Assembly (NCBI RefSeq): GCF_011602485.2
Contig: NZ_CP050022.2
Span: 2,500,001 to 2,564,000, forward strand
Reading direction: 5' to 3'
Length of the DNA: 64,000 nt
DNA from: Bradyrhizobium sp. 1(2017)
GTDB lineage: Bacteria; Pseudomonadota; Alphaproteobacteria; Rhizobiales; Xanthobacteraceae
Numbering within the stretch: position 1 is the first letter of the stretch; the number at the start of each line of letters is the position of its first letter. The translations under genes were made by a program, and so were the position numbers. This document shows, piece by piece, positions 542 through 49,188 of the stretch. Below the pieces are notes generated by a model, which saw only the letters and a list, made by a program, of their open reading frames with translations, was not told the DNA's origin and searched no databases.

Positions 542-586
542 GCTTGATGACGGTTGCCTGAACAAAATAGACGTAGCGGAGCAGAG

Positions 587-33089: not shown

Positions 33090-34856
33090 GTGAGCGTGGC
33101 CAACGAGCCCGGCCGGGTCTGGAAGCGACCGCCAATGAAGCATTGGATCCACTGGCTGCCGGCAATCGAAACGGTCCGTCGATATGAGGCGGCGTGGCTT
33201 CCGCGCGATATCTTCGCTGGACTCGTCCTGGCGACGATGCTGGTCCCGGTTGGAATTGCGTACGCGGTAGCATCGGGCTTGCCTGGCATCCACGGTCTGT
33301 ACGCAACGATCGTGCCGCTGCTGGTCTATGCGTTGTTCGGCCCCAGCCGCATCCTCGTTCTGGGGCCGGACTCGGCACTGGCAGCTGTCATTCTCGGCGT
33401 TGTGCTTCCGTTGTCCGGTTGCGATCCTCTTCGCGCCGTAACGCTCGCTGCCATGATGGCGATCGTTTCAGGGACGGTGTGTATTCTAGCCGGCATCGCG
33501 CGCTTGGGTTTTGTGACCGAGCTTCTCTCCAAGCCGATACGGTACGGCTATATGAACGGAATTGCATTGACCGTACTGATCAGCCAACTGCCAAAGCTCT
33601 TCGGCTTCTCGATCGAGGGCGAAGGACCTTTGCGGAGCCTTTGGGCGATCGCCGGTGCAATCCTTGACGGAAGGATAAACTGGGTCGCATTCGGGATTGG
33701 GCTCGGCACGCTGATGGTCATCCTGCTGCTCCAGAACAACAAGCGGCTGCCAGGTATTCTGATTGCGGTCGTTGGGGCGACCGGCATCGTCGGCCTGCTT
33801 GAACTTGGGACCCGTTACGGCGTGGCGGTTCTGGGTTCTCTTCCGCAGGGCCTGCCGGGGTTCGCGATCCCCTGGATCACCTACGGCGATATCGTCCCGG
33901 TACTGGTCGGCGGCTGCGCAATCGCGCTGGTATCATTCGCTGACACCAGCGTGCTTTCGCGTGCCTATGCCGCGCGATTGGGAACGCATGCCGATCCCAA
34001 CCAGGAAATGGTGGGGCTTGGCGCCGCCAATCTGGCAACCGGCTTTTTTCAAGGGTTCCCGATCAGCAGCAGCTCATCGCGTACTCCCGTTGCGGAAGCC
34101 GCCGGCGCCCGCACGCAACTAACCAGCGTCGTCGGCGCGCTTGCTATCGCCATCCTTCTGTTGGCGGCCCCAAACCTCCTTCAGCATTTGCCCACTGCCG
34201 CGTTGGCGGCCGTCGTCATCGCCTCTGCGATCGGCTTGTTTGAGGTCACCGACCTCAAGCGAATCTATCGGATTCAGCAGTGGGAGTTCTGGCTGTCGAT
34301 GGTCTGCTTTGTCGGCGTGGCGGTGCTCGGAGTGATCCCAGGAATTGGTCTGGCAATCGTAATCGCTATCGCCGAGTTCTTGTGGGACGGTTGGCGCCCA
34401 CACTCCGCCGTGTTGGGTCGCGCCCACGGCGTGAAAGGTTATCACGACATCACAAGATATCCGGATGCACGCCAAATCCCCGGGCTGGTCCTGTTTCGGT
34501 GGGATGCGCCTCTGTTCTTCGCCAACGCCGAGTTTTTCAAAGAGCGCGTACTGGATGCCGTGGCGAAATCGCCGACCCCCGTACGATGGCTGGTCGTCGC
34601 GGCGGAGCCTGTCACCAGCGTGGACGTCTCCGCCGGCGATGCAGTCGCCGAATTGGACGAGGCGTTGCACGCGCAGGGTATCGAGTTCTGCTTTGCCGAG
34701 CTGAAAGATCCAGTAAAGGACAAGCTGAAGAGATTTGGGCTTTTATCGCAGCTTGGCGAGCAATATTTTTTTCCAACCATTGGCGCAGCCGTTTCCACTT
34801 ACTTGGAAATCAATGACGTCGAGTGGGAGGACTGGGAGGACCAGGCCGAACGTTAG
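33090..34856 (+). CDS. SulP-family inorganic anion transporter
   Basis: A 588-residue SulP/SLC26-type transporter: about ten to twelve membrane helices, starting with LPRDIFAGLVLATMLVPVGIAYAVASGLP (shown here as PRDIFAGLVLATMLVP), the SSSSSRTPVAEAAGARTQ core motif, and a C-terminal STAS domain (VLFRWDAPLFFANAEFFKER, VAAEPVTSVDVSAGDAV). Family members carry sulfate, bicarbonate or carboxylates across the inner membrane. The GTG 33090 follows GAGG; an ATG at 33135 is an alternative. It is convergent with a sulfatase gene, which makes sulfate a reasonable but unproven substrate. Confidence 0.93.
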   Translation: MSVANEPGRVWKRPPMKHWIHWLPAIETVRRYEAAWLPRDIFAGLVLATMLVPVGIAYAVASGLPGIHGLYATIVPLLVYALFGPSRILVLGPDSALAAVILGVVLPLSGCDPLRAVTLAAMMAIVSGTVCILAGIARLGFVTELLSKPIRYGYMNGIALTVLISQLPKLFGFSIEGEGPLRSLWAIAGAILDGRINWVAFGIGLGTLMVILLLQNNKRLPGILIAVVGATGIVGLLELGTRYGVAVLGSLPQGLPGFAIPWITYGDIVPVLVGGCAIALVSFADTSVLSRAYAARLGTHADPNQEMVGLGAANLATGFFQGFPISSSSSRTPVAEAAGARTQLTSVVGALAIAILLLAAPNLLQHLPTAALAAVVIASAIGLFEVTDLKRIYRIQQWEFWLSMVCFVGVAVLGVIPGIGLAIVIAIAEFLWDGWRPHSAVLGRAHGVKGYHDITRYPDARQIPGLVLFRWDAPLFFANAEFFKERVLDAVAKSPTPVRWLVVAAEPVTSVDVSAGDAVAELDEALHAQGIEFCFAELKDPVKDKLKRFGLLSQLGEQYFFPTIGAAVSTYLEINDVEWEDWEDQAER

Positions 34857-35003
34857 GAAGTGACACGCCGGGCTTGAATACACACGTCGATTGACTTCAG
34901 ATCCTGGCCCTTGGCAGGGATTGTTGCGCTCAGAGCTGATGTCGGCGGCTTCAAGGAGCGCCGCGATGGACGACGGCGGCCGCATCCCAGGCATTCCAGA
35001 TTG

Positions 35004-36476
35004 TCAATTCTTGGGGAGACTGCTCGGTGGGGCCGGGGGCGGCGGGTTCACCACGCCGTAATGGTCGGCCATAACATTGCCGGGATGGAAGTAAGTCGCC
35101 GGCCGCGACCGTTCCTCCAGCATGGTGCCGTTCCACGTCTCCCAATCCCTCTTCAGCCGATCGAATACGTCTTTCTCCCGGTCCTTGAGATTGGCGCGCT
35201 CGCGCGGGTCTTGAACAACGTCGAAGAGAAATTCGTTCCCGGCGATCCGCAGGTATTTCCAGTTGCCGTCGCGCATAGCGCGCTGCGCTCCGGCCTTGTA
35301 GCGCCAATAAAGCGTGCGCGGATGCGGCGCCGCGCGGCCGGTCATGATCGACCCCAGGTCCTCACCATCGGACGGATAAGTCGCCTCCGGCGAGGTGCCG
35401 GCGGCAGCCAGCAAGGTCGGCATCCAGTCCATCGTCATCATGACCTGCTCAGACACAGTTCCAGGCGCGATCCGTCCGGGCCAGCGCACAATCGCGGGAA
35501 TGCGAATGCCCCCTTCGAGCAGCTCCTGCTTCATGCCGGAGAACGGCCAGTTGTTCGAGAATCGTTCGCCGCCATTGTCGCTGGTGAAGACGACGATGGT
35601 GTTGCTGGCGAGACCGCTGGTGTCGAGCGCTTGCAGTACTCGGCCGATATTGACATCCAGGCTCTGCACCATGGCGGCGTAGGTCTTCTGCGTGCCCCCG
35701 TCCCGGTGGATGATGCTTCGGATCCGCTGCGATTCGGCTTCGTCGCCTGGGCCTTCCCATGGCCAATGCGGTGCTGTGAAATGCAGGCTCAGTAGAAACG
35801 GCTCCTTCGACTTGGCGTAGCCTTCAACAGTCTGCACTGCCCGATCGCCGAGCAGGCTCGTCATATAGCCCTGGCGCTCGACCGGTACCTCTTGCTCGTG
35901 CAGTTGGCTCGCGAGTCCAGGTATCGGAAGCTGGTAAGCCCGCGCGTCCGCACCATGATTGAAATAGTCGGCGCAGCAGCCGATGACTCCGAAGAAGTGG
36001 TCGTAGCCGCTCTTCAATGGACTGAAATCGGGCAGGTAGCCGAGATGCCATTTGCCGACCAGGGTGGTGCCATAGCCGGCCTTCTTCAGCAGTGACGGCA
36101 CGGTGGGGTGGCTCGGCGGCAAGCCGACGTCCTTGGGACTTAACGGACTAATTGGTTCTTCGAGCCCGACTGGTAGACGAGCCTGGTAGCGTCCAGTGAT
36201 CAGCGCGGTGCGCGTCGCTGAGCAGTCGGGGGAATTGGAGTAACCCTGCGTGAATCTCAAGCCCTCGATTGCCAGCCGGTCTATGTTTGGCGTCGTATAA
36301 TCGCGCTGACCGTAGCAACTCACATCAGCGTAGCCGAGGTCATCCGCCATGATGAAGACGATGTTCGGCTTTGTCGATTGAGCGCGGGTCGGGCGACCAA
36401 GCCCCATCCCCGCCAGCGAACTCGCGGCAGTCGCTTGGACAAATCGACGACGAGAAATTGCGCGCAGATGCGCCAT
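35004..36476 (-). CDS. secreted sulfatase (arylsulfatase family), Tat-type signal
   Basis: A 490-residue sulfatase with a twin-arginine signal (SRRRFVQATAASSLAGMGLG). The metal-binding DD pair is Asp45-Asp46 (MADDLGY); the formylglycine motif is Cys85-Ser-Ala-Thr-Arg89, with Ala in place of the usual Pro. Downstream LVGKWHLGY, HFTAPHWPW and VFTSDNGGE supply further active-site residues. It would act in the periplasm, releasing sulfate from organic esters after maturation by a formylglycine-generating enzyme not present in this window. The C-terminus is Pro-rich. It has its own promoter region next to a repeat-laden gap. Confidence 0.92.
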   Translation of the reverse strand: MAHLRAISRRRFVQATAASSLAGMGLGRPTRAQSTKPNIVFIMADDLGYADVSCYGQRDYTTPNIDRLAIEGLRFTQGYSNSPDCSATRTALITGRYQARLPVGLEEPISPLSPKDVGLPPSHPTVPSLLKKAGYGTTLVGKWHLGYLPDFSPLKSGYDHFFGVIGCCADYFNHGADARAYQLPIPGLASQLHEQEVPVERQGYMTSLLGDRAVQTVEGYAKSKEPFLLSLHFTAPHWPWEGPGDEAESQRIRSIIHRDGGTQKTYAAMVQSLDVNIGRVLQALDTSGLASNTIVVFTSDNGGERFSNNWPFSGMKQELLEGGIRIPAIVRWPGRIAPGTVSEQVMMTMDWMPTLLAAAGTSPEATYPSDGEDLGSIMTGRAAPHPRTLYWRYKAGAQRAMRDGNWKYLRIAGNEFLFDVVQDPRERANLKDREKDVFDRLKRDWETWNGTMLEERSRPATYFHPGNVMADHYGVVNPPPPAPPSSLPKN

Positions 36477-37199
36477 CGGTCACCCTCGCACTAAGCTCAC
36501 GGTGATTGGAGGGAACCCTAACATTCTGCTCGCTTTCGCGGAAGCTAAAAGGTGACACAGCGAAAGCTGAACCGGAGGCACCGCACCAACTAGGATGTCG
36601 GGTTCTGGGCCCCGAGCAGAAGTTCTGGAGGCACTCTCGACCAGGTCAGCTTCTGGACCCAAAGCGGACATTCTCGCGCGGGCTCACGGTAGGCATATTC
36701 TCGGCTTCTTCCTTGGAAGCTCCAAATCCGACAAAGGTGTGTACAGGCCCGGCCTGCGTGTCACCCGGCGATACGAGAGCTATTTCGGAAATGTAATAGG
36801 ACGAGCAGGACGCAGCGATCACTTCGCCGGCTGTAGCAAGCAATCAACACCAGAGTACGAGTAGTCCGGTCACCTTCATGTTGGATCTCTGGCTTTGCTT
36901 TCTCAAGGCCGACGCACAATCAGCCCCATCGAGAAAGCGACTGCTCTCTGGGATAGTCTCTGAGCGTCAACCCTGTGAAACGGTCCGCTATTGACCTAGA
37001 TCAACGGGCGCGCGTTGCGGTTATGCGGCGCTACATAGGCGCCATCCTGCATTCCCGCGTTTACTGGGGTGCCGGCCCACAACGCGCCACACAGCGCGAG
37101 CGGACCCAGCGCCTCACCGACGGGGACAACAACTCATCCCAAGACTGGCCCGCGCGGTCCTGTCGGTGGGCTGCGGAATTATGAGAGGAGACGTCCGAC
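36477..37199. other. 723-base non-coding gap with decayed repeats
   Basis: No convincing gene. The left half holds degenerate repeat units of the type CTTCTGGACCCAAAGCGGACAT (36646-36677, with a poorer unit at about 36598-36640). Short reading frames here translate to the 'SGPKADIL' string, a hallmark of this repeat rather than of a protein. The right half has a FixK/FNR-type box (36991-37004) and, before the next gene, GAGAGGAG. Confidence 0.7.
36991..37004 (+). promoter_or_regulatory. FixK/FNR-type box upstream of the FlbD-repeat protein
   Basis: TTGACCTAGATCAA fits TTGA-N6-TCAA with one asymmetric inner base. A box centred at -41 would place the transcript start near 37038, leaving a leader of about 160 bases to the gene at 37200. 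Confidence 0.55.
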
Positions 37200-37694
37200 A
37201 TGATTCGACGGCGCGCGTTCATCACGGCTCTCGGCATTGCGGCCATGTGGCCACTTGCTGCTCGCGCGCAAGACCCAGCGCTCGCTCGGCTGGGTGCAAT
37301 TAAGTTGACCGAACCAAGGGGGAAACCGGTCTACATCAACATCGCGCTGCTTACTTTCGTCAAACCCGACGCGCACATTGCGGGCGCCAGCGTTGAACTT
37401 GGTCTGACGAGCGGGAGAGTTCAGGCCGTGCAAGAAAATATCGAGGAAATCATACGATTGGTAAGGGCGTCACACCGTGGTGAGCTGACCTGGATCAAAT
37501 TGACTGAACCTAATGGCAAATCCATCTACATCAACGTATCACAAGTGACTGCTGTCAGGTCGGACAGCCAGATTCCCGGCGCAAATGCCGAACTCGGTTT
37601 TGCGAGCGGGAAGCTCCAGGGCGTGAGAGAGACCTCCGATGAGGTGATGCAGTTGGTAGCAACTCTTGCAGGGCAAACTGGAAGGCTCCCGTGA
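37200..37694 (+). CDS. secreted protein with two FlbD-like repeats
   Basis: A 164-residue protein. A signal peptide with RRRAF (Tat-like) and a hydrophobic core ends near ARA-Q24. The mature part is an internal duplication: residues 34-88 and 99-153 both run IKLTEPxGKxxYIN, then GAxxELGxxSG and end in xxLV. This pattern (IKLT..NGK..YIN..I..I......L..G....V.E....V) resembles FlbD, a small flagellar protein, as two copies in an exported chain. A flagellar role is doubtful because no flagellar gene is nearby. GAGAGGAG lies ten bases before the ATG. A FixK/FNR-type box lies upstream. Confidence 0.75.
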   Translation: MIRRRAFITALGIAAMWPLAARAQDPALARLGAIKLTEPRGKPVYINIALLTFVKPDAHIAGASVELGLTSGRVQAVQENIEEIIRLVRASHRGELTWIKLTEPNGKSIYINVSQVTAVRSDSQIPGANAELGFASGKLQGVRETSDEVMQLVATLAGQTGRLP

Positions 37695-38046
37695 AGCCTG
37701 TATGGCTCATGACAGCAGTCACCTTTTAAGTGGCGCGCGTAGTCAAGGCGCGACGGCAAGCGCGAGCCAGAGTTTCAATCTGTCCGGTCGCCCATTGGAT
37801 CTCCCCACCTCAAGTCCCGATTGCGCAACTTCCGCTTCTGGCCCAGAGCCGAACAACGAACGCGCCGTCGCCACGTCGGCTCTTTGAGGGAGACCGGACC
37901 TGGCGCGATGGGACGTGCTGAGCCGCTTTTGACCCAGAGCGGAACCAGAGTTGATAAAAAGCTCGAGTACGCAACCTTTGTTTGTTAACAGATATCTCGT
38001 GCATTAGCTGACAGCGTTCCGGTCACGCGGTATTAGCGTGCGCTCG
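37695..38046. other. 352-base non-coding gap with decayed repeats
   Basis: Two degenerate units of the intergenic repeat are visible: CTTCTGGCCCAGAGCCGAAC around 37835-37854 and CTTTTGACCCAGAGCGGAAC around 37926-37945. The end of the gap is AT-rich (TTGATAAAAAG, TTTGTTTGTTAACAGATA) and probably carries the promoter of the small gene at 38047. No supported gene. Confidence 0.65.
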
Positions 38047-38283
38047 ATGAAGAGACCCACACCGAGACTTGGCTGGAAGCCCTCATCCAAACCGCCCTTT
38101 AGGTTCGCGGAGTTGGCTGCAATTGTGGCGGTCCTCGCATTCGTCGCCGCGTTATTGGCGTTTTACGTCCTACATCCACCGCCTTTCAAACTGGAGAACT
38201 CATCATCGTTTGGTCCCGATTGGGATTGCTCGCCAAACCCCTATGCAAACGTTTGTCTAAAGCGAGTTATCCCGGCCCGATAA
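38047..38283 (+). CDS. small single-pass membrane protein
   Basis: A 78-residue protein with a basic N-terminus, one transmembrane helix (AELAAIVAVLAFVAALLAFY, residues 24-43) and a short periplasmic tail with two cysteines (DWDCSPNPYANVCLKR). Tails of the form GWxC...xxxCxK are frequent in small rhizobial membrane proteins, which supports a real gene. A GTG nine bases upstream is an alternative start. Function unknown. Confidence 0.6.
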   Translation: MKRPTPRLGWKPSSKPPFRFAELAAIVAVLAFVAALLAFYVLHPPPFKLENSSSFGPDWDCSPNPYANVCLKRVIPAR

Positions 38284-38305
38284 GCAGGACATCTCGGAAC
38301 TCATC

Positions 38306-38551
38306 ATGAAATCCCTCGAACTGAAATTCCGCGTGCGGGACGTTCACAAAATCAGAAACTTTGCTGAAGACCTGAGTCTGCACTTGAATGACCTCGGCAG
38401 TCTGCCGATGGACGAGGCTGACCAGGCCACCAATACCTTGGTAGTGCACGATATTCACGCTCAACAGCTCCGCCGCTGCCGAGTGCACGTAGAAAGATTT
38501 CTGGAAAAGCACTTCCTTGCGGACGTCTGTGACATCGTTGAGCTTCATTGA
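38306..38551 (+). CDS. small hypothetical protein
   Basis: An 81-residue soluble protein (MKSLELKFRVRDVHKIRNFA, ending VERFLEKHFLADVCDIVELH) with an alternating beta/alpha pattern that could be a small ferredoxin-like fold, similar in style to ACT-like domains. It starts 22 bases after the small membrane protein and may share its transcript. The ribosome-binding site is weak. No family recognised. Confidence 0.5.
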   Translation: MKSLELKFRVRDVHKIRNFAEDLSLHLNDLGSLPMDEADQATNTLVVHDIHAQQLRRCRVHVERFLEKHFLADVCDIVELH

Positions 38552-38754
38552 AGGGTACATCGAGGTCGGCTTGTGGCCCAAAGCGGAAGTTAGACCACTT
38601 GGTCCTGTGCAAAATGTTGCATACGCTTTCCCTCGGCTCACGCAGGGCCGCGCCGTCGAAACCGTCATCTGGGGCATGGCGGCGGTCATACCAACGTGCG
38701 CTCAACATGTGGATAGCCGCGCGATCACAAGCATAGAAGGATTGGAGAACGGCG

Positions 38755-39774
38755 ATGATGAAGAAGGCTCTTGCTGCGCTTGCATTGATCTGCATGGCAG
38801 CGTCTGCCTATGCGCAAAGTGCTGTCCCGGTTACCGTGGACAATTTCACGCGTGCGGAATCCGATCTTTATCTGGGCAACGCCGTCGAGGAGGCCAGCGG
38901 TGTCGGTAAGCTGCACCACCATCGCGAGGCGATGCCGATCGACAGGCAGTCTGTCATTCGCGCCAACAGGGACACGCTCTATTCGCCGGCGGTGATCGAC
39001 CTTGATGCAGGACCGGTGACGATCAGGCTGCCGGATGCCGGCAAGCGGTTCCGCTCGATGCAGGTGATCAACGAAGATCACTATGTGGTCGGCAATGTCG
39101 AGTACCGGCCGGGCAACTACACCTATGACAGGAAAAAAGCTGGCACACGCTATATCCTGATCGCGCTGCGCACGCTGGTCGACCCCAACGATGCCAAGGA
39201 CGTTGCGGCGGTTCATGCCCTTCAGGATGCCACCAGGCTGAGCCAGAAGAATGCCGGCAAGTGGGAAGTGCCGAAATGGGATGACGCGAGCCAGAAGAAG
39301 GTGCGCGACGCCCTGCTGGTCCTCGGCTCGACCATGCCTGACTTCAAGGGGGCGTTCGGCGCCATGGGGCAGGTCGATCCGATTCGCCACTTGATCGGTA
39401 CGGCGCTCGGCTGGGGCGGCAATCCCGACAAGGAGGCGACCTACCTCAACGTCACGCCGGCGAGCAATGACGGCAAGGCAATCTACAAGCTCGATGTGAA
39501 GGACGTCCCGGTTGACGGCTTCTGGTCGATCAGCCTCTACAACGGCGAGGGCTATTTCCAGAAGAACGACACCAACGCCTACTCCATCAACAATCTCACC
39601 GCCAGGAAGAATGCGGACGGATCGATCACGGTGCAGTTCGGCGGCTGCGACGGCAAAGTACCGAATTGCCTGCCGATCATGGCGGGGTGGAATTACACGG
39701 TTCGCCTCTATCGCCCGCGCGTGGAGATCTTGAACGGAAAATGGAAATTCCCGGAGGCGAAACCAGTCATCTAA
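38755..39774 (+). CDS. secreted DUF1254/DUF1214-domain protein
   Basis: A 339-residue exported protein: signal peptide MKKALAALALICMAASAYAQ, then a DUF1254-like N-terminal region (VTVDNFTRAESDLYLGNAV, IRANRDTLYSPAVIDL) and a DUF1214-like C-terminal region (DGFWSISLYNGEGYFQKNDT, YSINNLTARKNADGSITVQF). These two domains usually occur together in periplasmic or outer-membrane proteins of unknown function. Two ATGs (38755, 38758) follow GGAGAACGG. It precedes insertion-sequence copy 1. Confidence 0.88.
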   Translation: MMKKALAALALICMAASAYAQSAVPVTVDNFTRAESDLYLGNAVEEASGVGKLHHHREAMPIDRQSVIRANRDTLYSPAVIDLDAGPVTIRLPDAGKRFRSMQVINEDHYVVGNVEYRPGNYTYDRKKAGTRYILIALRTLVDPNDAKDVAAVHALQDATRLSQKNAGKWEVPKWDDASQKKVRDALLVLGSTMPDFKGAFGAMGQVDPIRHLIGTALGWGGNPDKEATYLNVTPASNDGKAIYKLDVKDVPVDGFWSISLYNGEGYFQKNDTNAYSINNLTARKNADGSITVQFGGCDGKVPNCLPIMAGWNYTVRLYRPRVEILNGKWKFPEAKPVI

Positions 39775-39927
39775 CGAAGCAATTGCACCGTGACGGACCT
39801 TGTGCAAAAGCAGCGGGCTTAGGTCCGCTCATGGCCCGTAATGGACCTCCCGGCATGGCAGCTTTTAGGCCGCTACCGAGGCACAAGCGGACATTAGGCG
39901 CTGGCCCACTTGTTGATTTATGATGGG

Positions 39928-39941
39928 GTGGACGCCCCGCC
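39928..39941 (+). repeat. left subterminal inverted repeat of IS copy 1
   Basis: GTGGACGCCCCGCC; perfect complement at 41270-41283. Confidence 0.85.
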
Positions 39942-39997
39942 CGACGGCATCGATGTGCCAAAGTGGAGGTGTTGAGCACCACTTAAGGGAGGCGTCC

Positions 39998-41032
39998 GTG
40001 TCAGAGGTTATCATAATCGGTCTGGATATCGCCAAGCATGTTTTCCACGCTCATGGAGCAGACGGGAAAGGGCGAGCAATATTCAGCAAACGGATCAGCC
40101 GAGGAAAGCTGCTGGATTTCTTCGCAGCTCAGCCGAGTTGCACGGTAGCTCTGGAGGCATGTGGCGGAGCGCATCACTGGGCCCGTCAACTGACCCAGCT
40201 TGGCCATGAAGTTCGGCTGATCCCTCCCGCCTACGTAAAGCCGTTTGTGAAGCGGCAAAAGAATGACGCGATCGATGCCGAGGCGATCTGCGAAGCAGCG
40301 CAGCGGCCGAGCATGCGGTTCGTGGCCGTGAAGAGCGAACAGCAACAGGCGGCGGGTCTGGTGTTTCGGACCCGTGACCTGTTAGTGCGGCAGCGAACGC
40401 AGCTCATCAACGCGATCCGGGGACACCTCACTGAATATGGATGGGTCGCACCTAAGGGGCCGTCGCACGTGACGATGCTTACCGACCTGATCGAGGAAGA
40501 AGAGATGGCCAGCTCGCTCCCCAAAGCGGCCCACGCCATGTTCCGATTGATGTTGGACCTGCTGACCGACCTCAATGGCAAGGTCGCGGACCTCGACCAG
40601 GAAATCGCGCGACGTGCTCGCGAGGACGAAGTATCGCGCAGGCTGATGACCGTTCCTGGCATCGGCCCGATCTCCGCCACAGCGATCGCCGCCCTAGCGC
40701 CGCCGATCGAGACCTTCGCCAAGGGCCGCGACTTTGCCGCCTGGCTGGGGCTTACGCCTCTTCAACGATCGACGGGTGGCAAACAGAAGCTTGGCGCGAC
40801 GTCCAAAATGGGCGAACGCACGCTCAGGCGCCTCCTCATCATCGGCAGCAGCGCCGTCGTGCAGCAGGCGAGCAAACGGGGCGCGCCAAGAGGTTCGTGG
40901 CTCGAGCAGATGCTGGCACGCAAACCGCGCATGCTGGTAACCGTGGCGCTCGCGAACAAGATGGCGCGGATCGTCTGGGCGCTGCTTGTAAAGCAGGAAA
41001 ACTACAGAGCTCCGGTCGCGGCCATGGCGTGA
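39998..41032 (+). CDS. IS110-family transposase (bridge-RNA-type recombinase), copy 1
   Basis: A 344-residue DEDD recombinase. The RuvC-like domain shows Asp10 (IIGLDIAKHVF), Glu53 (VALEACGGAHHWA), Asp90 and Asp93 (KNDAIDAEAICEA). The C-terminal Tnp domain has RLMTVPGIGPISATAIAAL (helix-hairpin-helix-like), FAAWLGLTPLQRSTGGK and SKMGERTLRRLLIIGSSAVV with the conserved Ser. It would form circles of the element and insert them at specific short targets using an element-encoded RNA. GTG 39998 follows AAGGGAGG; the frame is open upstream, but only through the element's left end. Identical to the protein at 45821-46855. Confidence 0.93.
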   Translation: MSEVIIIGLDIAKHVFHAHGADGKGRAIFSKRISRGKLLDFFAAQPSCTVALEACGGAHHWARQLTQLGHEVRLIPPAYVKPFVKRQKNDAIDAEAICEAAQRPSMRFVAVKSEQQQAAGLVFRTRDLLVRQRTQLINAIRGHLTEYGWVAPKGPSHVTMLTDLIEEEEMASSLPKAAHAMFRLMLDLLTDLNGKVADLDQEIARRAREDEVSRRLMTVPGIGPISATAIAALAPPIETFAKGRDFAAWLGLTPLQRSTGGKQKLGATSKMGERTLRRLLIIGSSAVVQQASKRGAPRGSWLEQMLARKPRMLVTVALANKMARIVWALLVKQENYRAPVAAMA

Positions 41033-41099
41033 GCCTGGCGGGCCTGAGGTCGTCGCAGGTGCAGTCGGTCGAAGGAGAGTATGGCGCAACAGTCGGCGA

Positions 41100-41225
41100 G
41101 ACGGGGCCGGAAGAACCAGATGTACTCATCGTGCCCAGAGCACGCATTTATGATTTGGTTCCGGTCCGCGAACTCCCATACGGGCCCGCAGCTCCATCGC
41201 TGCATCAGAGGCCGGACAGATGGCA
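41100..41225 (+). ncRNA. candidate bridge RNA (seekRNA) of IS copy 1
   Basis: The right non-coding end folds as: stem CCGG (41107-41110) and AACCA (41114-41118) pairing with TGGTT (41156-41160) and CCGG (41161-41164); internal loop strands GTACTCATC (41122-41130) and ATTTATGAT (41146-41154); terminal hairpin GTGC-CCAGA-GCAC (41131-41143). The 5' loop strand is the exact complement of the right junction (41285-41293), the 3' strand equals the left junction (39916-39924). A second hairpin GCAGC-TCCATC-GCTGC (41188-41203) is flanked by CCCAT and ACAGATG, which partly match the element ends and may be the donor loop. RNA ends and strand are inferred. Confidence 0.6.
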
Positions 41226-41340
41226 GCATCCGACTACGTGCCAATCTTCTTCAAAAACCGCTTGCATCTGGCGGGGCGTCCACAGATGAGTACACGCCAA
41301 GGCGACGGTCAGTGGTTCGCACTATTCGGGGAGGCGCGGG

Positions 41341-41950: not shown

Positions 41951-42105
41951 CCGCGCAGCTGAACAAGCAATCGGCCAATCCCTCAGAGATCAGCAACGGC
42001 AACAACAGGCAACTTCAGTCTGCGCTTCTTCAATATTGAATGTCGCCTCTTGGCCCGGATCCCTCTGTGAGGGCAGCGCAGAGCACGTCTGCTCTGCCCC
42101 CGAAG

Positions 42106-42738
42106 TCAGACGTCGACTTGTTCTGCTATCGCGAGGGCGTCGTCGACCTCGATGCCGAGATATCGAACGGTGCTCTCGATCTTAGTATGTCCCAGAAGGA
42201 GCTGTACGGCTCGCAGGTTGCCGGCTCGGCGATAGATTAAGGTCGCCTTGGTCCGGCGAAGGGAATGCGTCCCGAATAGATGCGGGTCCAATCCGATGCC
42301 GGCGAGCCAGCGAGACAGGAGGCGGGCATACTGGCGGGTCGTCATATGTCTACTCACCCGCCGACCGGTGAACAGGTATTCTCCTGACGTCTTGCCTGTA
42401 ACCCGAAGGTAATCGTCGATCGCCTGCCGGGTCGATTCCGTCAGTTCAAATTTGACTGGCCGGCCGGTCTTCTTCTGTCGGACGGTCGCGCGGTCGGCCG
42501 AATATCCACCCGGCGCAAGGTCATCAACTTTCAAGGCTACGACGTCGCAACCGCGCAGCTTGCTATCGATGGCGACGTTGAACAGTGCCAGGTCGCGCAT
42601 TCGGCCTTCGACCTGCAGCTTGGTTCGAATTGACCAGACGTGCTTCGGACGGAGCGGCGGCTTTGCGCCGACGATCTTCCCCTTGTTCCAAGGAACGTGC
42701 TTCGAGACGGCGGGGACGGTGCTTGGAGTAACGGTCAT
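42106..42738 (-). CDS. tyrosine recombinase/integrase (catalytic domain only)
   Basis: A 210-residue tyrosine recombinase. The catalytic set is complete: Arg62 (SKLRGCDVVALKVDD), Lys90 region (RQKKTGRPVKFEL), His158-x-x-Arg161 (THSLRRTKATL), His184 (LLGHTKIEST) and nucleophile Tyr193 (VRYLGIEV). The N-terminal SAM-like core-binding domain is missing; only about 45 residues (WNKGKIVGAKPPLRPKHVWS) precede the catalytic fold. Short forms of this kind exist in rhizobia as separate genes. No att sites or tRNA are seen nearby. It lies between the two insertion-sequence copies. Confidence 0.85.
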   Translation of the reverse strand: MTVTPSTVPAVSKHVPWNKGKIVGAKPPLRPKHVWSIRTKLQVEGRMRDLALFNVAIDSKLRGCDVVALKVDDLAPGGYSADRATVRQKKTGRPVKFELTESTRQAIDDYLRVTGKTSGEYLFTGRRVSRHMTTRQYARLLSRWLAGIGLDPHLFGTHSLRRTKATLIYRRAGNLRAVQLLLGHTKIESTVRYLGIEVDDALAIAEQVDV

Positions 42739-43178
42739 CTTGACCTCCTCAGCTAGTGAGGCTGGTCATTTTCAGCCGGAAGCCCTTCCAATCCGGCGTC
42801 CACTTCGAGACGAGTGGCGACGTACTTGCGTCCAATTCGGGCGATGGCAGGGCCGAATTTGACCCAGAGCGGTCATTGACGGAGGTCAGCTGCCGTTCGC
42901 GCCATGTCTGCTTTTGGAAAATCCTTCTCCCGACCGCAGTTAGCGGGACGCTTGCTATATCAAATTTCGGAATTGAAGCGGTGGTCTCCCTGCGCAGTCG
43001 TCAACGACGGCTTATGACCCTTTGCGGACATGGCGCCACTCGTGGCTGATTGATCTATGTCAAGGGAACGATACGGCGCTCCCGTTTCAATCAAAGGACG
43101 GTTGTACAGCCGCGCTATGGCAATTCGTCGGCGTAAGCGGAGGCATTCAGGTCCCAATAGCTTAAAGGAGAGGCATCG
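42739..43178. other. 440-base non-coding gap with decayed repeats
   Basis: It contains two degenerate units of the intergenic repeat (AATTTGACCCAGAGCGGTCA at about 42856 and GGCTTATGACCCTTTGCGGA at about 43009), then a FixK/FNR-type box (43050-43063) and, just before the sulfatase gene, AAGGAGAGG. No gene is supported. Confidence 0.65.
43050..43063 (+). promoter_or_regulatory. FixK/FNR-type box upstream of the second sulfatase
   Basis: TTGATCTATGTCAA matches TTGA-N6-TCAA. A class II FixK promoter would start at about 43097, 82 bases before the sulfatase ATG, a normal leader length. Confidence 0.6.
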
Positions 43179-45605
43179 ATGAATCGTCGTGAGCTTTTTC
43201 TTTCTTCCGCGAAGGGAGCACTTGCTTCTGCACTTGGTTGGTCTTGGCTTCGCGGGTCAGCGCAGGCTCAAGAAGTACTTCCGCTTCCGCAGCCGCCATT
43301 CAAGGGAAAAATCGGCACCACGTATAAGGATTCGATGCCGGACAAGATACCGATCATTAATGCTCCAAGCGGCGCGCCGAACGTCCTGCTTGTTCTGATC
43401 GACGATTGCGGCTTCGGACAATGGGGGACATTCGGCGGGCAGATCCCAACGCCGAACCTGGACCGGCTCGCAAAGGCCGGATTGCGCTACACACGCTTCC
43501 ATACCACGGCGCTTTGTTCACCGACGCGAGCCGCGCTGCTCACTGGCCGCAATCATCATTCTGCCGGAACGGGCAACATTACCGAACTGGGCGACGGCTA
43601 TCCCGGCTATAGCGGACAGATCCCGAACAGCGCCGCCATGGTAGCTGAACCGCTGCGCCAGCATGGCTACAGCACGGCCTGGTTCGGAAAGAATCACAAC
43701 ATTCCGGATTGGGAGACCAGCGTGTCTGGCCCCTATGACCGCTGGCCAACCCGGCAGGGATTTGATCACTTCTACGGTTTCTTAGGGGGCGAAGCGAACC
43801 AGTGGGCGCCGGCGCTCTATCGCGACAACACGCCGATTGAGATGGAGATCCCGAACGGAAGGACAGCGGACTATACCCTCAATGAAGCGCTTTCGGATGA
43901 GGTGATCAGTTACATCAACAAACAAAAGTCGGTCACTCCGGATAGGCCGTTCTTCATCTATTACGCGCCGGGAGCCACGCACGCTCCTCATCACGTGCCG
44001 AAGGAATGGATCGACAAGTTTAAAGGGCAGTTCGATCAGGGGTGGGATAGATATCGCGACGAGACATTCCAACGGCAACTTCGCCTTGGTGTCATCCCTC
44101 CAGACACCAAGTTGACCCCGCGGCCGGCGGAGATTCCCGCCTGGGATTCCCTTTCCGCAGATCAGAAGCGTATTGCTTCGCGGCTGATGGAGACGTTCGC
44201 CGCCTACACGGCACAAACCGATTTCCTTGTCGGGCGCGTTCTGGATGCTCTGGAGGCAGTCGGCCAAACGGACAACACGCTTGTCTTCTGGGAGATTGGC
44301 GACAACGGGTCCTCCATGGAAGGCACCCTCAATGGCGCATTTAACGAGATGGTCGGTATCAACGGGCAGCAGGAAGACCCGAACTTTATCCTAGCGCGCC
44401 TCGACGAAATCGGCGGTCCGAAGTCCTATAACCACGTTCCGGTTGGATGGGCGTGGGCCATGGACACGCCGTTCCAGTGGGGCAAGCAGGTCGCCTCGCA
44501 TTTCGGTGGCACGCGAAATCCGCTCGTCATCTCGTGGCCTGACAGGATCAAGGACAAAGGCGCCATTCGCAATCAATTCCACCACGCCATCGACATCGTT
44601 CCAACGATCCTGGAAGCGGCTCAGGTTGAGCAGCCTTCGTCGGTCAACGGCGTCGCTCAAAAGCCGATAGAAGGCGTCAGCATGGTTTACACTTTCGACG
44701 ACCCAAAGGCTGAGGAGCGGCGTCGCGTTCAATATTTCGAAATGTTCGGCAGCCGCGCGATCTACAGCGACGGATGGGTCGCATGCGTCCGCCATGGACG
44801 GCTGCCCTGGGAAAATATCGGCTCGTATGATTTCGCCAACGACAAGTGGGAGCTTTACCGGATTGAGAGCGACTTCAGCGAGGCCAACGACTTGGCGGCC
44901 CAGGAGCCTAAGCGTTTGCGCGACATGCAAGACTTGTTCTGGGTCGAGGCGGCAAAGTACGATGTGCTGCCGCTGGATGACCGGTTCATCGAGCGCGCTG
45001 ACCCCAGCTTGCGTCCCAGCCTGATTGCGGGACGCACCAATTTCACCTACTACCCGGGTGCCACGCGGATTCCCGAAAGCTCATCGCCCAATGTAAAGAA
45101 CCGCTCGCACAGCATTACGGCCTATGTCGAGGTCCCACAAACAGGTGGTGACGGCGTGCTGGTCGCTGCCGGTGGCCGCGTTGCTGGCTACACTCTTTAC
45201 GTTGAGGACGGCAGACCGACCTACGAATACAACTGGTTCTCGATGCAGCGCTTCACGGTGACGGGTTCGGACAAGCTCGCACCCGGCCCCGCAACCGTTC
45301 GCGTGGACTTCAAGTACGACGGCGGTGGGGTTGCAAAGGGTGGCACGGTGACGCTTTTCGTCAACGACAAGAAAGTAGGCGAAGGTCGGGTCGAGAAGAC
45401 CGTCTTGGGCCGGTTCTCAGCCGATGAAACTTTCGACATCGGGGTCGATACGGGGTCACCGGTCAGTGACAATTACGCATCGCCAAATCCCTATGTAGGC
45501 AAGCTCCGTAAGGTGGAGATTCGCCTCGCCCCGGTGAACCACACCGAAAACGACATTAAAGCGATCCGCAAAGCGGAATTGGCGGCGCGATCAGCCATTG
45601 AATAG
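43179..45605 (+). CDS. secreted arylsulfatase, long form
   Basis: An 808-residue sulfatase with an export signal of Tat character (MNRRELFLSSAKGALASALG, cleavage near AQA-Q31). Asp75-Asp76 (LVLIDDCGFG) bind calcium; the formylglycine motif is the canonical Cys113-Ser-Pro-Thr-Arg117 (TALCSPTRAALLTGRNHH). Further active-site regions are FGKNHNIPDWE and IGDNGSSMEG. Residues 640-808 form an additional beta-rich domain (HSITAYVEVPQTGGDGVLVA, KYDGGGVAKGGTVTLFVNDK), as in the large arylsulfatases of soil bacteria. It is not closely similar to the 35004 sulfatase. Third codon positions look less GC-rich than in the core genes. A FixK/FNR box precedes it. Confidence 0.93.
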   Translation: MNRRELFLSSAKGALASALGWSWLRGSAQAQEVLPLPQPPFKGKIGTTYKDSMPDKIPIINAPSGAPNVLLVLIDDCGFGQWGTFGGQIPTPNLDRLAKAGLRYTRFHTTALCSPTRAALLTGRNHHSAGTGNITELGDGYPGYSGQIPNSAAMVAEPLRQHGYSTAWFGKNHNIPDWETSVSGPYDRWPTRQGFDHFYGFLGGEANQWAPALYRDNTPIEMEIPNGRTADYTLNEALSDEVISYINKQKSVTPDRPFFIYYAPGATHAPHHVPKEWIDKFKGQFDQGWDRYRDETFQRQLRLGVIPPDTKLTPRPAEIPAWDSLSADQKRIASRLMETFAAYTAQTDFLVGRVLDALEAVGQTDNTLVFWEIGDNGSSMEGTLNGAFNEMVGINGQQEDPNFILARLDEIGGPKSYNHVPVGWAWAMDTPFQWGKQVASHFGGTRNPLVISWPDRIKDKGAIRNQFHHAIDIVPTILEAAQVEQPSSVNGVAQKPIEGVSMVYTFDDPKAEERRRVQYFEMFGSRAIYSDGWVACVRHGRLPWENIGSYDFANDKWELYRIESDFSEANDLAAQEPKRLRDMQDLFWVEAAKYDVLPLDDRFIERADPSLRPSLIAGRTNFTYYPGATRIPESSSPNVKNRSHSITAYVEVPQTGGDGVLVAAGGRVAGYTLYVEDGRPTYEYNWFSMQRFTVTGSDKLAPGPATVRVDFKYDGGGVAKGGTVTLFVNDKKVGEGRVEKTVLGRFSADETFDIGVDTGSPVSDNYASPNPYVGKLRKVEIRLAPVNHTENDIKAIRKAELAARSAIE

Positions 45606-45820
45606 AGATCGATGAGATCGAAGTCAGGAGACGAGCGAGTGTCGGCTTGTGGCCCATCGCGTCGTTTCGCCGTGGTGCGGAGTTTGATCGCTACCCGTGC
45701 ATAGCCGACATCGGGCAAGCCTGCACCAATCAAGCTCGATTTATGATGGGGTGGACGCCCCGCCCGACGGCATCGATGTGCCAAAGTGGAGGTGTTGAGC
45801 ACCACTTAAGGGAGGCGTCC

Positions 45821-46855
45821 GTGTCAGAGGTTATCATAATCGGTCTGGATATCGCCAAGCATGTTTTCCACGCTCATGGAGCAGACGGGAAAGGGCGAGC
45901 AATATTCAGCAAACGGATCAGCCGAGGAAAGCTGCTGGATTTCTTCGCAGCTCAGCCGAGTTGCACGGTAGCTCTGGAGGCATGTGGCGGAGCGCATCAC
46001 TGGGCCCGTCAACTGACCCAGCTTGGCCATGAAGTTCGGCTGATCCCTCCCGCCTACGTAAAGCCGTTTGTGAAGCGGCAAAAGAATGACGCGATCGATG
46101 CCGAGGCGATCTGCGAAGCAGCGCAGCGGCCGAGCATGCGGTTCGTGGCCGTGAAGAGCGAACAGCAACAGGCGGCGGGTCTGGTGTTTCGGACCCGTGA
46201 CCTGTTAGTGCGGCAGCGAACGCAGCTCATCAACGCGATCCGGGGACACCTCACTGAATATGGATGGGTCGCACCTAAGGGGCCGTCGCACGTGACGATG
46301 CTTACCGACCTGATCGAGGAAGAAGAGATGGCCAGCTCGCTCCCCAAAGCGGCCCACGCCATGTTCCGATTGATGTTGGACCTGCTGACCGACCTCAATG
46401 GCAAGGTCGCGGACCTCGACCAGGAAATCGCGCGACGTGCTCGCGAGGACGAAGTATCGCGCAGGCTGATGACCGTTCCTGGCATCGGCCCGATCTCCGC
46501 CACAGCGATCGCCGCCCTAGCGCCGCCGATCGAGACCTTCGCCAAGGGCCGCGACTTTGCCGCCTGGCTGGGGCTTACGCCTCTTCAACGATCGACGGGT
46601 GGCAAACAGAAGCTTGGCGCGACGTCCAAAATGGGCGAACGCACGCTCAGGCGCCTCCTCATCATCGGCAGCAGCGCCGTCGTGCAGCAGGCGAGCAAAC
46701 GGGGCGCGCCAAGAGGTTCGTGGCTCGAGCAGATGCTGGCACGCAAACCGCGCATGCTGGTAACCGTGGCGCTCGCGAACAAGATGGCGCGGATCGTCTG
46801 GGCGCTGCTTGTAAAGCAGGAAAACTACAGAGCTCCGGTCGCGGCCATGGCGTGA
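45821..46855 (+). CDS. IS110-family transposase, copy 2
   Basis: The same 344-residue DEDD recombinase as at 39998-41032, with no amino-acid difference. Start GTG 45821 after AAGGGAGG. The lack of any divergence means that the duplication or transposition was very recent, or that the copies are homogenised by recombination. Confidence 0.93.
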   Translation: MSEVIIIGLDIAKHVFHAHGADGKGRAIFSKRISRGKLLDFFAAQPSCTVALEACGGAHHWARQLTQLGHEVRLIPPAYVKPFVKRQKNDAIDAEAICEAAQRPSMRFVAVKSEQQQAAGLVFRTRDLLVRQRTQLINAIRGHLTEYGWVAPKGPSHVTMLTDLIEEEEMASSLPKAAHAMFRLMLDLLTDLNGKVADLDQEIARRAREDEVSRRLMTVPGIGPISATAIAALAPPIETFAKGRDFAAWLGLTPLQRSTGGKQKLGATSKMGERTLRRLLIIGSSAVVQQASKRGAPRGSWLEQMLARKPRMLVTVALANKMARIVWALLVKQENYRAPVAAMA

Positions 46856-46922
46856 GCCTGGCGGGCCTGAGGTCGTCGCAGGTGCAGTCGGTCGAAGGAG
46901 AGTATGGCGCAACAGTCGGCGA

Positions 46923-47048
46923 GACGGGGCCGGAAGAACCAGATGTACTCATCGTGCCCAGAGCACGCATTTATGATTTGGTTCCGGTCCGCGAACTCCC
47001 ATACGGGCCCGCAGCTCCATCGCTGCATCAGAGGCCGGACAGATGGCA
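46923..47048 (+). ncRNA. candidate bridge RNA (seekRNA) of IS copy 2
   Basis: Exact copy of the structured segment at 41100-41225. The loop strands are at 46945-46953 and 46969-46977 and the terminal hairpin at 46954-46966. They match this copy's own junctions (right 47108-47116, left 45739-45747) in the same way. Confidence 0.6.
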
Positions 47049-47199
47049 GCATCCGACTACGTGCCAATCTTCTTCAAAAACCGCTTGCATCTGGCGGGGC
47101 GTCCACAGATGAGTACGTGCCCCATAGGAACCGTCCACAACCTGCGATGACGCTTCAACCCCACTCTCATCGCACCTTGGCTTCCCAGGCGCGCTGCCC

Positions 47200-49188
47200 T
47201 CACGGGCTAGCGACCTGTTGCAGCGTGTTGAAGCGCGCCTTCTGCTCGCTGCTCAGCGTGGCATAGAACTCGTCGAGGGCGGGTTCGACCAGCTTGGCGG
47301 CCGTCAGCATGGCCTCGAGCCGGTGCTGCATCGTCTCCATCCGTCCAACCGGTGTCAGCGGCGCATCGTTCGGACAGGCCGCCTGCAGGCCCTCGACGCC
47401 CTTGGCCGTCGCTTCGCTGAGGCGGTCGAGCGCCTCCTTCTGCTTGCCTGCGGGGTGGAGCACGGTCTCGATCCTCTGGATCGGCAACTGCGTCAGCCCG
47501 GACTTCGGATCGGCACAGCCTTCGGCACTGGCCTCCTGCTGTTGCGGCGACCGTTCGCCCACATTGGGGCCAAGTGCGTTGAAGCGGGCCTGCTGTTCGT
47601 CACTGAGCGAGTTGTAGAAATTCTCCAGTGCCGGTCGAACGATCTTGACGGCTTCCAGCGTCGCGCTGATGCGGTTCATCATTGCCCGCAGGCGGCCAGG
47701 GGGAGTCAGGGCATAAGTCTCCGCGCAGGAGTCCTTGAACACACCGGCAGCGCTCGCCGCCGCCGTCTTCAGCTCGTCGAGCAGCGTGCGTTGCTCCGGC
47801 GTCGGCCGCACCGCCCGCGCGATGTCGGCAAGTGGCCAGGCGGTCACGCCCTTGTCCGGTGTGCCGCATAATTGCTGAAGCGTCTGCGGGCTCACGCTGG
47901 CACGTTGGCGCGTGCGGGAGCCGCCGCCGGCTTGCGGATAGTCATAGGGATTGGTGCTGGCATAGGCGGAGTAGGGGCCGTCACCACCCCAGAACACGGT
48001 GTCGACGAAGTCGTCATAGGCGTACGCCCAGTATCCAGGCTCGTAGCCATAGGACCAGAACGTGTAGTTGAAGATGTCGGAATAGGCGTAGGGCCAGAAC
48101 ACGGGCCCGAGCCAAGCCACGAACACCGCGGGATGACGGTGACGCCAGGCCTGCCGGGGAGCCCAGCCACTTTGGCGCGTGAGGAGAGCCTCTTGGGTCC
48201 GCGACGTGGCCTGCTCGCGGAAGCGCGTGGCAAACCGTCCGCGCTCGGCGGCCTGCGTGGCGGCCGCAAGCGCCGAAGCGCGCGCGGCCGGAGCCTGCAA
48301 TCCAAGCCGCTGCTGGCGCGCCAGGTCAATTTGCTGCGCGCGCTGCTCACGGCCGAGCAAGCGGTTCTGCGCATGGAGCATCCGTTGCTGCGCGCGTTCC
48401 GCCCGCGCGCCTTCCGGCTTTTGCGATTGCAATTGCTGCACGCGCTGCTGCAGGCGATCAATGCGGGTCTGGCGCTCCGTGGTCTGGCGCGACAGCATCT
48501 CGCGCTGGCGCTGCTCGACCTGCTGCGAGCGCTGTTGGACACGTTGCTCGCGCTCAAGAAGGCGGTTCTGCGACTGCAGCAACCGCTGCTGCTGGTGTTG
48601 CGCCCTTGCGCCTTCCGGCTTCTGCGATTGCAATTGCTGCACGCGCTGCTGCAAGCGGTCGATGCGGTCTTGGCGTTGCGCGGATTGGCGCGAAAGCGTC
48701 TCGCGCGGCGGTCCCGGTCGCTCGGTCACGGCTGCAGGTGCGCTTGGGCGCGATGGGGCGGCGATATGAGGCGTCGGCCGCGGCGCCATGGCCGGACGTT
48801 GCTCCGCTGCCGGCGCCCGACGGACTTCGGGTCGCGGCGAGCCTACGTGCGGGGCAGGTCGCGACGGCGGCGCAGCAAAACGTGGGGCCGGACGCGGCGG
48901 CGGTGAGGCGATGTGCGGCGCCGGTCGTGGCGCCATCGCCGGCCGCTGCGGCATGGCTGGCGGCGCGGCCGGACGAGCCATCGCTGGTGGTGCGGCGGGA
49001 CGGGCCATGGCCGGCGGTGCGGCCGGACGGGCCATCGCCGGCGGTGCTGCGGGCCGCGCTGCCGGCGCTGCGGCGGGCCCTGGTGGTCCACCCCGTCCGT
49101 GTCCAAGGGGTCCCTGGGCCGACGCGCTCGTCGCCAGCATCGAGGCACCAACCAGAACAGCCGTCAGGCAAACGCCACGCGGAAGCAT
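47200..49188 (-). CDS. secreted Pro/Ala-rich protein with tandem Spy/LTXXQ-like domains
   Basis: A 662-residue exported protein: signal peptide MLPRGVCLTAVLVGASMLAT, cleavage near ASA-Q25; four 9-residue repeats ARPAAPPAM (44-79) in a Pro-rich region; two copies of a Gln/Arg-rich coiled coil (RIDRLQQRVQQLQSQKPEGA); a Tyr/Trp-rich middle (YAYSDIFNYTFWSYGYEPGY); and two C-terminal LTXXQ-like helical domains, each beginning LTPxGR and ending YxxLSxEQxARFN. LTXXQ/Spy/CpxP proteins are periplasmic chaperones or envelope-stress sensors. The start ATG 49188 is chosen for the signal peptide. Long runs of repeats make the exact length variable between strains. Confidence 0.82.
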   Translation of the reverse strand: MLPRGVCLTAVLVGASMLATSASAQGPLGHGRGGPPGPAAAPAARPAAPPAMARPAAPPAMARPAAPPAMARPAAPPAMPQRPAMAPRPAPHIASPPPRPAPRFAAPPSRPAPHVGSPRPEVRRAPAAEQRPAMAPRPTPHIAAPSRPSAPAAVTERPGPPRETLSRQSAQRQDRIDRLQQRVQQLQSQKPEGARAQHQQQRLLQSQNRLLEREQRVQQRSQQVEQRQREMLSRQTTERQTRIDRLQQRVQQLQSQKPEGARAERAQQRMLHAQNRLLGREQRAQQIDLARQQRLGLQAPAARASALAAATQAAERGRFATRFREQATSRTQEALLTRQSGWAPRQAWRHRHPAVFVAWLGPVFWPYAYSDIFNYTFWSYGYEPGYWAYAYDDFVDTVFWGGDGPYSAYASTNPYDYPQAGGGSRTRQRASVSPQTLQQLCGTPDKGVTAWPLADIARAVRPTPEQRTLLDELKTAAASAAGVFKDSCAETYALTPPGRLRAMMNRISATLEAVKIVRPALENFYNSLSDEQQARFNALGPNVGERSPQQQEASAEGCADPKSGLTQLPIQRIETVLHPAGKQKEALDRLSEATAKGVEGLQAACPNDAPLTPVGRMETMQHRLEAMLTAAKLVEPALDEFYATLSSEQKARFNTLQQVASP
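48952..49059. repeat. four 27-base tandem repeats inside the Spy-like gene
   Basis: They encode the four consecutive ARPAAPPAM units of the Pro-rich region (residues 44-79). Such in-frame repeats can change number by slippage. Confidence 0.8.

Follow-up and report, generated by a model that had tools for sequence, protein, structure and literature searches.

We analysed a window of 64,000 nucleotides from Bradyrhizobium sp. 1(2017) (contig NZ_CP050022.2, positions 2,500,001 to 2,564,000, forward strand), in which an insertion sequence of the IS1111 group occupies 39921-41286 (1366 bp). The non-coding right end of this element very probably encodes a guide RNA, in which both strands of a target-reading loop change together with the sequences flanking the element. 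A first-pass annotation had proposed such a target loop, and we find this interpretation supported by the element's own copies, by covariation among relatives and by a covariance model. Beyond that annotation, we describe a second loop for the donor, another identical copy within the window, guides in reversed order relative to IS621, and what kind of sequence the target is. A raw-sequence reading of one element can reveal an RNA-guided recombinase, and its relatives add dozens of natural co-changes of guide and site, all within one clade.

The target loop and the flanking sequences

According to the covariance model, the guide RNA region in the right end of the element is predicted to extend over 41092-41265 (176.5 bits, the window being a training sequence), with the right guide on the 5' side; it lies on the plus strand, like all parts of the RNA named below. 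From fold and alignment structure, the 5' side of the target-arm stem (GGGCCGGA and ACCA, 41104-41118) pairs with the 3' side at 41156-41167. The right target guide TGTACTCA at 41121-41128, assigned from sequence and covariation, is the complement of TGAGTACA at 41287-41294, and the left target guide ATTTATG at 41146-41152, assigned from covariation, equals the left target plus core at 39916-39922. Between them stands a terminal hairpin CGTGC-CCAGA-GCACG (41130-41144), in which one pair is UA in 23, CG in 22 and AU in 2 of 49 sequences. The matches originally noticed are present as described, with GTACTCATC at 41122-41130 being the reverse complement of 41285-41293 and ATTTATGAT at 41146-41154 being identical to 39916-39924, and the stem (AACCA/TGGTT and CCGG/CCGG) and hairpin (GTGC-CCAGA-GCAC) drawn around them appear in the minimum-free-energy fold of 41100-41225. 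Both 9-mers include two element-internal bases; when the count is restricted to target and core, the 233 bases that follow the transposase contain matches of at most 7 on the left and 8 on the right, and dinucleotide shuffling of this stretch reaches both lengths in 11 of 5000 cases. The matches had been called hard to attribute to chance, and they are suggestive in this respect, but a single copy would leave the claim open. It is settled by the covariation of guides and flanks among relatives.

The genome holds three identical (100%) copies of the element at different loci, the second at 45744-47109 of the window on the plus strand (C1:2545744-2547109) and the third inside C1:7805272-7806654 on the minus strand. 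All three are preceded by GATTTA and followed by TG-AGTAC and have the same orientation relative to this target, while alignment of their flanks with those of the first copy extends a few bases past the ends and no further. From the flanks of the copies and from empty-site comparisons, the left target GATTTA with the core TG, which we count with the element, lies at 39915-39922, and the core TG with the right target AGTAC at 41287-41293 (both plus strand). Once joined, the flanks match a paralogous region of this genome in a gap-free alignment (159 bases, 90%). A second genome of the genus has GATTTATGAGTAC uninterrupted in a homologous region (88% across all 182 bases of the query); in the own genome there is no contiguous exact copy of this 13-mer, the nearest having one mismatch. 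The gap-free empty paralogue and the empty site in the related genome indicate insertion without added target duplication, as expected for the IS1111 group. Together, the three copies at different sites and the intact empty site confirm the reading GATTTA-TG-AGTAC.

For comparison between elements, 80 were kept of 567 encoding a relative, with 59-97% protein identity. Exact inverted repeats placed both ends in 52 of the 80, which together with the three own copies gave 55 elements, and 51 of these were scored, leaving aside L010 and L085, where the right flank was too short, and L052 and L084, where the ends were unclear. Six bases per side, core excluded, were compared with the loop strands, with the right register free by 0-3 bases (widened after a fixed-register test) for own and swapped pairs alike. 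Own flanks agreed with the guides at 4.86 and 5.24 of 6 positions on average, swapped flanks at 1.56 and 2.86. The summed own match was 515, against a mean of 230.8 (standard deviation 13.9) and a maximum of 299 in 20,000 permutations, and with one element per distinct guide pair (n = 42) it was 419 against a permuted mean of 191.1 and a maximum of 239. With one fixed register the score was 452 against 166.0, reached in none of 10,000 permutations. At least 4 of 6 bases agreed on both sides in 44 of the 51 own pairs, compared to 4.7% of swapped pairs. Relatives share descent, so these permutation figures are not probabilities, for which the distinct-guide subset and the tree count given below are a partial answer. 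Unchanged loop strands next to different flanks had been named beforehand as the outcome that would speak against a guide function; among the 51 elements, those with other flanks carry matching changes in both loop strands.

Nearer relatives were examined in 48 loci of the genus, of which 43 rows were read (L122, L128, L129, L142 and L151 were left out), with L106 being the own second copy and L155 the same place as L107. In the 29 rows of at least 84% identity, one of them the own second copy, TG stood on both sides in every case, the left strand matched at 6 or more of 8 positions in 27 (core included, best of five offsets) and the right strand reached at least 4 of 6 in 26. Taking own copies and genus rows together, the same guide was accompanied by the expected flanks with few exceptions. 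In the more distant group L140-L154 (66-69% identity), most right scores were low, and by eye the register differs there by one base. L116 and L138 have GGTTC both as flank and as guide, while the guides of L131 and L133, which are flanked by CGTTAATG or CCTTAATG and by AGTCC, match all 8 positions on the left and 5 and 6 of 6 on the right. Judged from these alignments, this is natural re-programming on a small scale, of guide and flank together. A separate group of relatives (L017, L022, L024 and L026) has sites like GGG-TG-GAAAGCGGAC, with variants GATAGC and GTTAGC, which the right guides track with one mismatch in L026.

The structure around the guides is conserved as well. For 49 sequences, RNAalifold predicts target arm, terminal hairpin and donor arm, with both partners altered in one or more sequences for 13 of 26 pairs. 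In the structure named here (23 pairs), 97.6% of cells are paired and 12 pairs show double changes; of 500 shuffles, 0, 0, 0, 11 and 0 reach its five measures, and controls with the structure slid along the alignment pair 21-42%, a comparison favoured by the structure having been derived from the same alignment. The covariance-model search proposed in the first-pass annotation was run on 35 sources, five of them training or identical sequences (the window, L002, L054, L073 and L081), and found the RNA at E below 1e-10 in 26 of the 30 loci not used for building. L063 was weak, and L012, L014 and L050, loci that end at or near the gene or match part of it, gave no match. Since the relatives had been picked by their transposase, these matches show conservation and not independence. 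No Rfam release 15 family matched the window at gathering scores or 41030-41290 at E<=1. At L004, another place in the genome that carries the element, the model also detects a diverged guide RNA (554-725, minus strand, 70.5 bits), adjoining a short 75% match to the element.

The donor arm and alternative readings

Downstream of the target arm, the predicted RNA has a second loop that would read the element's own ends. An inner stem GGCC/GGCC with a hairpin GCAGC/GCTGC (41183-41213) stands between a putative right donor guide CTCCCAT (41173-41179), complementary to the left-end bases ATGGGG (39923-39928) when one G-U pair is counted, and a left donor guide ACAGATG (41216-41222), which equals the right end plus core (41282-41288). 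The hairpin varies with compensation, while the GGCC/GGCC pairs are invariant in 49 of 49 sequences and hence carry no covariation evidence. At the level of sequence, guides for both element ends, as in a bridge RNA in the broad sense, are present, with the right donor guide being the weaker one.

The strand 41216-41222 equals right end and core in 52 of 53 elements, the exception being the last base in L030. With 17 elements added by a fuzzy pattern, the donor test comprised 70 rows from 67 different proteins, 11 of the 80 loci being excluded (L012, L014, L016, L038, L045, L049, L050, L063, L064, L071 and L077). Over five bases, left donor guide and end were identical in all 70 rows, distributed over four types (ACACA 30, ACAGA 26, ATACA 12, ACATA 2), and on a quick transposase tree, in which three branches are long and unsure, all of them ACAGA, 11 changes are needed for ends and guides alike. 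Two end types stand alone within a clade, ACATA in L058 and ACAGA in L051. For the right donor guide, own pairing scored 312 of 371 against a permuted mean of 299.3, a small margin which none of 20,000 permutations reached.

We favour a reading in which these ends are recognised by RNA, and it bears on a question that the IS1111 work leaves open in the sections we draw on, namely what binds the ends of such elements (PMC11187229). An 82-nucleotide seekRNA of ISEc11 is sufficient for transposition according to the same source, so the RNA might read the target only, as a seekRNA in the narrow sense, with the protein recognising the ends through the subterminal inverted repeats and the donor similarity having another cause or reflecting common descent. 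Conserved ends do make agreement by descent easy, permuted exact matches averaging 18.7 of 53 with a maximum of 32, and in 17 of the 70 elements the search pattern had fixed or nearly fixed three of the five bases compared. Nevertheless we regard this alternative as unlikely, given the identity in 70 of 70 rows across four types, the 11 changes on the tree, the two lone types and a right donor pairing above all permutations. Alternatively, a process such as imprecise recombination could have copied target or end sequence into the element, leaving the loop matches as relics with no guide function: the matched sequence is less than 1.3 kb away, and the shuffles show that both lengths can be reached by chance. 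However, passive remnants would lose position, strand and order, whereas guides and flanks change together in 51 elements within stems that are conserved with compensatory changes, which makes an origin of this kind very improbable. We give equally little credence to a role of the region in regulating the transposase, as antisense or attenuator hairpin, with site preference coming from the protein, since this leaves unexplained why the loop strands follow the flanks in each element.

Several observations weigh against the proposed guide RNA and its two loops. The RNA is known here from sequence alone, from which we infer its expression and function. Agreement with the flanks is incomplete, at least 5 of 6 bases matching in 38 of 51 elements on the left and in 42 on the right, and individual matches are poor, on the right in L020 (2 of 6), L041 and L083 (3 each) and on the left in L009 (3). 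For 38 of 51 guides no other flank matches better than the own one, and in the fixed register the right-side score is just 1 in 10 of 51 elements and 0 in one more. The genus rows failing on the right are L109, whose right end is duplicated, and L111 and L125, which score 3, while L110 and L121 are weak on the left. The folding energy is unremarkable and, taken alone, poor evidence: the fold of 41100-41225 has a z score of -2.1, with 7 of 200 shuffles folding as well, and 41093-41266 a z score of -1.8, with 11 of 200 as good. In the best fold of this longer segment the AACCA stem and the hairpin are kept and GGCC is paired elsewhere, while the centroid restores the GGCC pairing. A proposed closing stem GUCGG/CCGAC shows no covariation, with 86.4% of cells paired compared to 85.4% in shuffles, and we do not claim it. 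In the donor arm, the right guide gives no signal when moved by one base (238 against a permuted mean of 237.1), its register was chosen afterwards, and its variation falls into few classes and was not corrected for descent.

Weighing these points, we consider it reasonably probable that the RNA of this IS1111 element reads its own ends as well as the target by means of four guides, that in this clade the donor arm was rewritten some 11 times together with the ends, so that both sides could be re-programmable, and that this lineage is programmed onto the inverted-repeat ends of a family of single-gene cassettes in its genus, for which a limited text search gave no description. Should the ends indeed be read by the RNA, recombinases of the IS1111 group, with 344 residues in the present case, could be re-programmable on either side. 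The present analysis adds covariation of the donor loop among IS1111 elements and the character of the target, part of a 22-bp motif that behaves like an inverted-repeat end in a dispersed, cassette-like element family.

The target motif in the genus

Among 257 genomes of the genus, 94 contain a match to the second window copy's flanks when these are joined. What the matches share close to the site is a motif: its 18-mer GATTTATGAGTACRYGCC, with one mismatch allowed, is present in 37 of 60 genomes, the backward control in none. In the fetched loci conservation continues to GATTTATGAGTACRCGCCCTAG, whose last four bases, lying outside the search pattern, agree in 30, 28, 24 and 27 of 36 instances. 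With up to one mismatch, the outer 16-mer was found 141 times in 20 chosen genomes, compared to 3 times for its backward control. Where neighbouring copies of the motif lie within 2.5 kb, all 11 pairs are oriented towards each other, as are all 14 within 5 kb and 16 of 17 within 10 kb. Among loci fetched by the motif, 15 of 16 pairs are facing; counted by distinct place this is 13 of 14, with an overlap of at least two with the count in 20 genomes.

These counts place the target within a conserved 22-bp motif that recurs across the genus. In the simplest reading, it would be the inverted-repeat end of small units that make up a dispersed family. The genes inside the closed units differ, and three run against Pfam encode an ABC-type substrate-binding protein (PF04392), an alpha/beta hydrolase and a DUF4396 protein; by eye, no transposase was recognised among their longest frames. 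From this arrangement, the units between facing motifs look like a non-autonomous or cassette-like element family, to which the target of the IS1111 element points. The motif ends in CTAG and flanks single-gene units, and CTAG at its outer edge would fit a target duplication. No description of such a cassette-like family was found in a limited text search of open-licence papers (11-mers; Bradyrhizobium with inverted repeats and gene cassettes). Across the genus, CTAGGGCGYGTACTCATAAATC is seen in facing pairs round single unrelated genes in L157, L185, L194, L200, L202, L211, L226, L227, L231, L235, L236 and others. Inward of unpaired motifs in L205 and L210, transposase-like frames were noticed by eye. 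Within the window, 34000-40500 and 42000-48500 contain no good inverted partner of the motif at up to 4 mismatches, the one hit being copy 3's own target site, and Rfam gave no match at 20 target-motif loci apart from one tRNA in L177.

The element, published systems and variant junctions

The gene of the transposase, or recombinase, starts with GTG and occupies 39998-41032 on the plus strand, encoding 344 amino acids. The protein matches NF033542, the model of IS110-family RNA-guided transposases, at E 2.6e-98 and contains the DEDD and Transposase_20 domains (PF01548 and PF02371) as well as the motif GLTPLQRSTGG, read by eye in the translation, as expected for the IS1111 pattern GL-P----S(t)G. 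Its nearest named relatives in Bradyrhizobium have 97% and 91% identity, and by sequence at E<=0.01 the relatives with solved structure are IS621 and ISCro4 only. Some match to the element is present in 204 of 265 genus genomes.

Elements of the IS1111 group carry extensions of 7 bp on the left and 3 bp on the right outside their subterminal inverted repeats (PMC11187229). The present element, on the plus strand, has the same layout, starting with the core TG plus ATGGG before the left repeat GTGGACGCCCCGCC (39928-39941, plus strand) and ending in AGA after the right repeat (41270-41283, minus strand), the perfect 14-bp complement of the left one; core included, the ends read TGATGGG-repeat and repeat-AGA. 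The repeat of 14 perfect bp compares to the 11-13 bp usual in the group. Likewise typical of the group, the longer non-coding stretch lies downstream, with 254 bases 3' of the transposase stop compared to 77 before the start. The DUF1254/DUF1214 protein gene adjoins this first copy (38755-39774 of the window), and a similar frame was seen by eye inward of the target motif in L197.

The element thereby fits a further carrier of the IS1111 seekRNA, or bridge RNA, published in 2024, and appears to resemble the IS621 bridge RNA without being of that type. It has in common with ISEc11, ISPa11, ISKpn4 and ISPst6, as described in PMC11187229, the RNA 3' of the transposase gene, the 7/3-bp extensions, the lack of target duplication, a top-strand match located 5' of the bottom-strand match, the two covering overlapping parts of one target, and natural re-programming between relatives. 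It differs in its target and in a visible donor arm with matching changes, which the consulted sections of that source do not report. ISPa11 likewise targets a dispersed repeat, but there the repeat is the REP sequence. With the bridge RNA of IS621, of the IS110 group, the candidate RNA shares two loops with four guides, the core dinucleotide within the pairings, the recombinase family (PMC11208160, PMC11208158) and the use of strands. In contrast to IS621, it lies at the opposite end of the element and has the left and right guides in reversed order, the right-guide-first order being a mark of the IS1111 type (PMC11187229). Its donor guides are placed around a branched arm, as predicted for many IS1111 elements in PMC11208160, where donor-binding nucleotides were predicted from inspection of a few elements.

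By analogy with the work on ISEc11, ISPa11, ISKpn4 and IS621, the transposase would bind the guide RNA, and the element would leave its site as a circle closed at TG. In the IS1111 group, a seekRNA of 70-100 nucleotides, or about 150 in the long form, binds to the transposase and is required for movement. Gene and RNA would be transcribed from a promoter arising at the circle joint, and the circle would then recombine with a matching target, with no duplication beyond the shared TG. A possible -35 box TTGCAT lies at 41262-41267 on the plus strand and in the circle would stand 17 nucleotides before GATGAT (41285-41286 joined to 39921-39924), so that the two together would be a possible promoter. 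All 49 sequences retain TTGC close to the right end.

Variant junctions were observed in a number of relatives. By eye, the dinucleotides at left and right junction differ, for example TG and CG, in L011, L013, L015, L034, L040 and L149. In L013, L015 and L034 the right target guide has the right-hand dinucleotide, and the left target and left donor guides have TG, while L011 has CG in all three guides and the right guide of L040 keeps TG. Such differences would fit strand exchange across a mismatched core. The right end is tandemly duplicated in L008, L109, L052 and L086 (about 18 or 10 bp, by eye), and in L052 and L086 the flanks past the second right-end copy fit the guides better.
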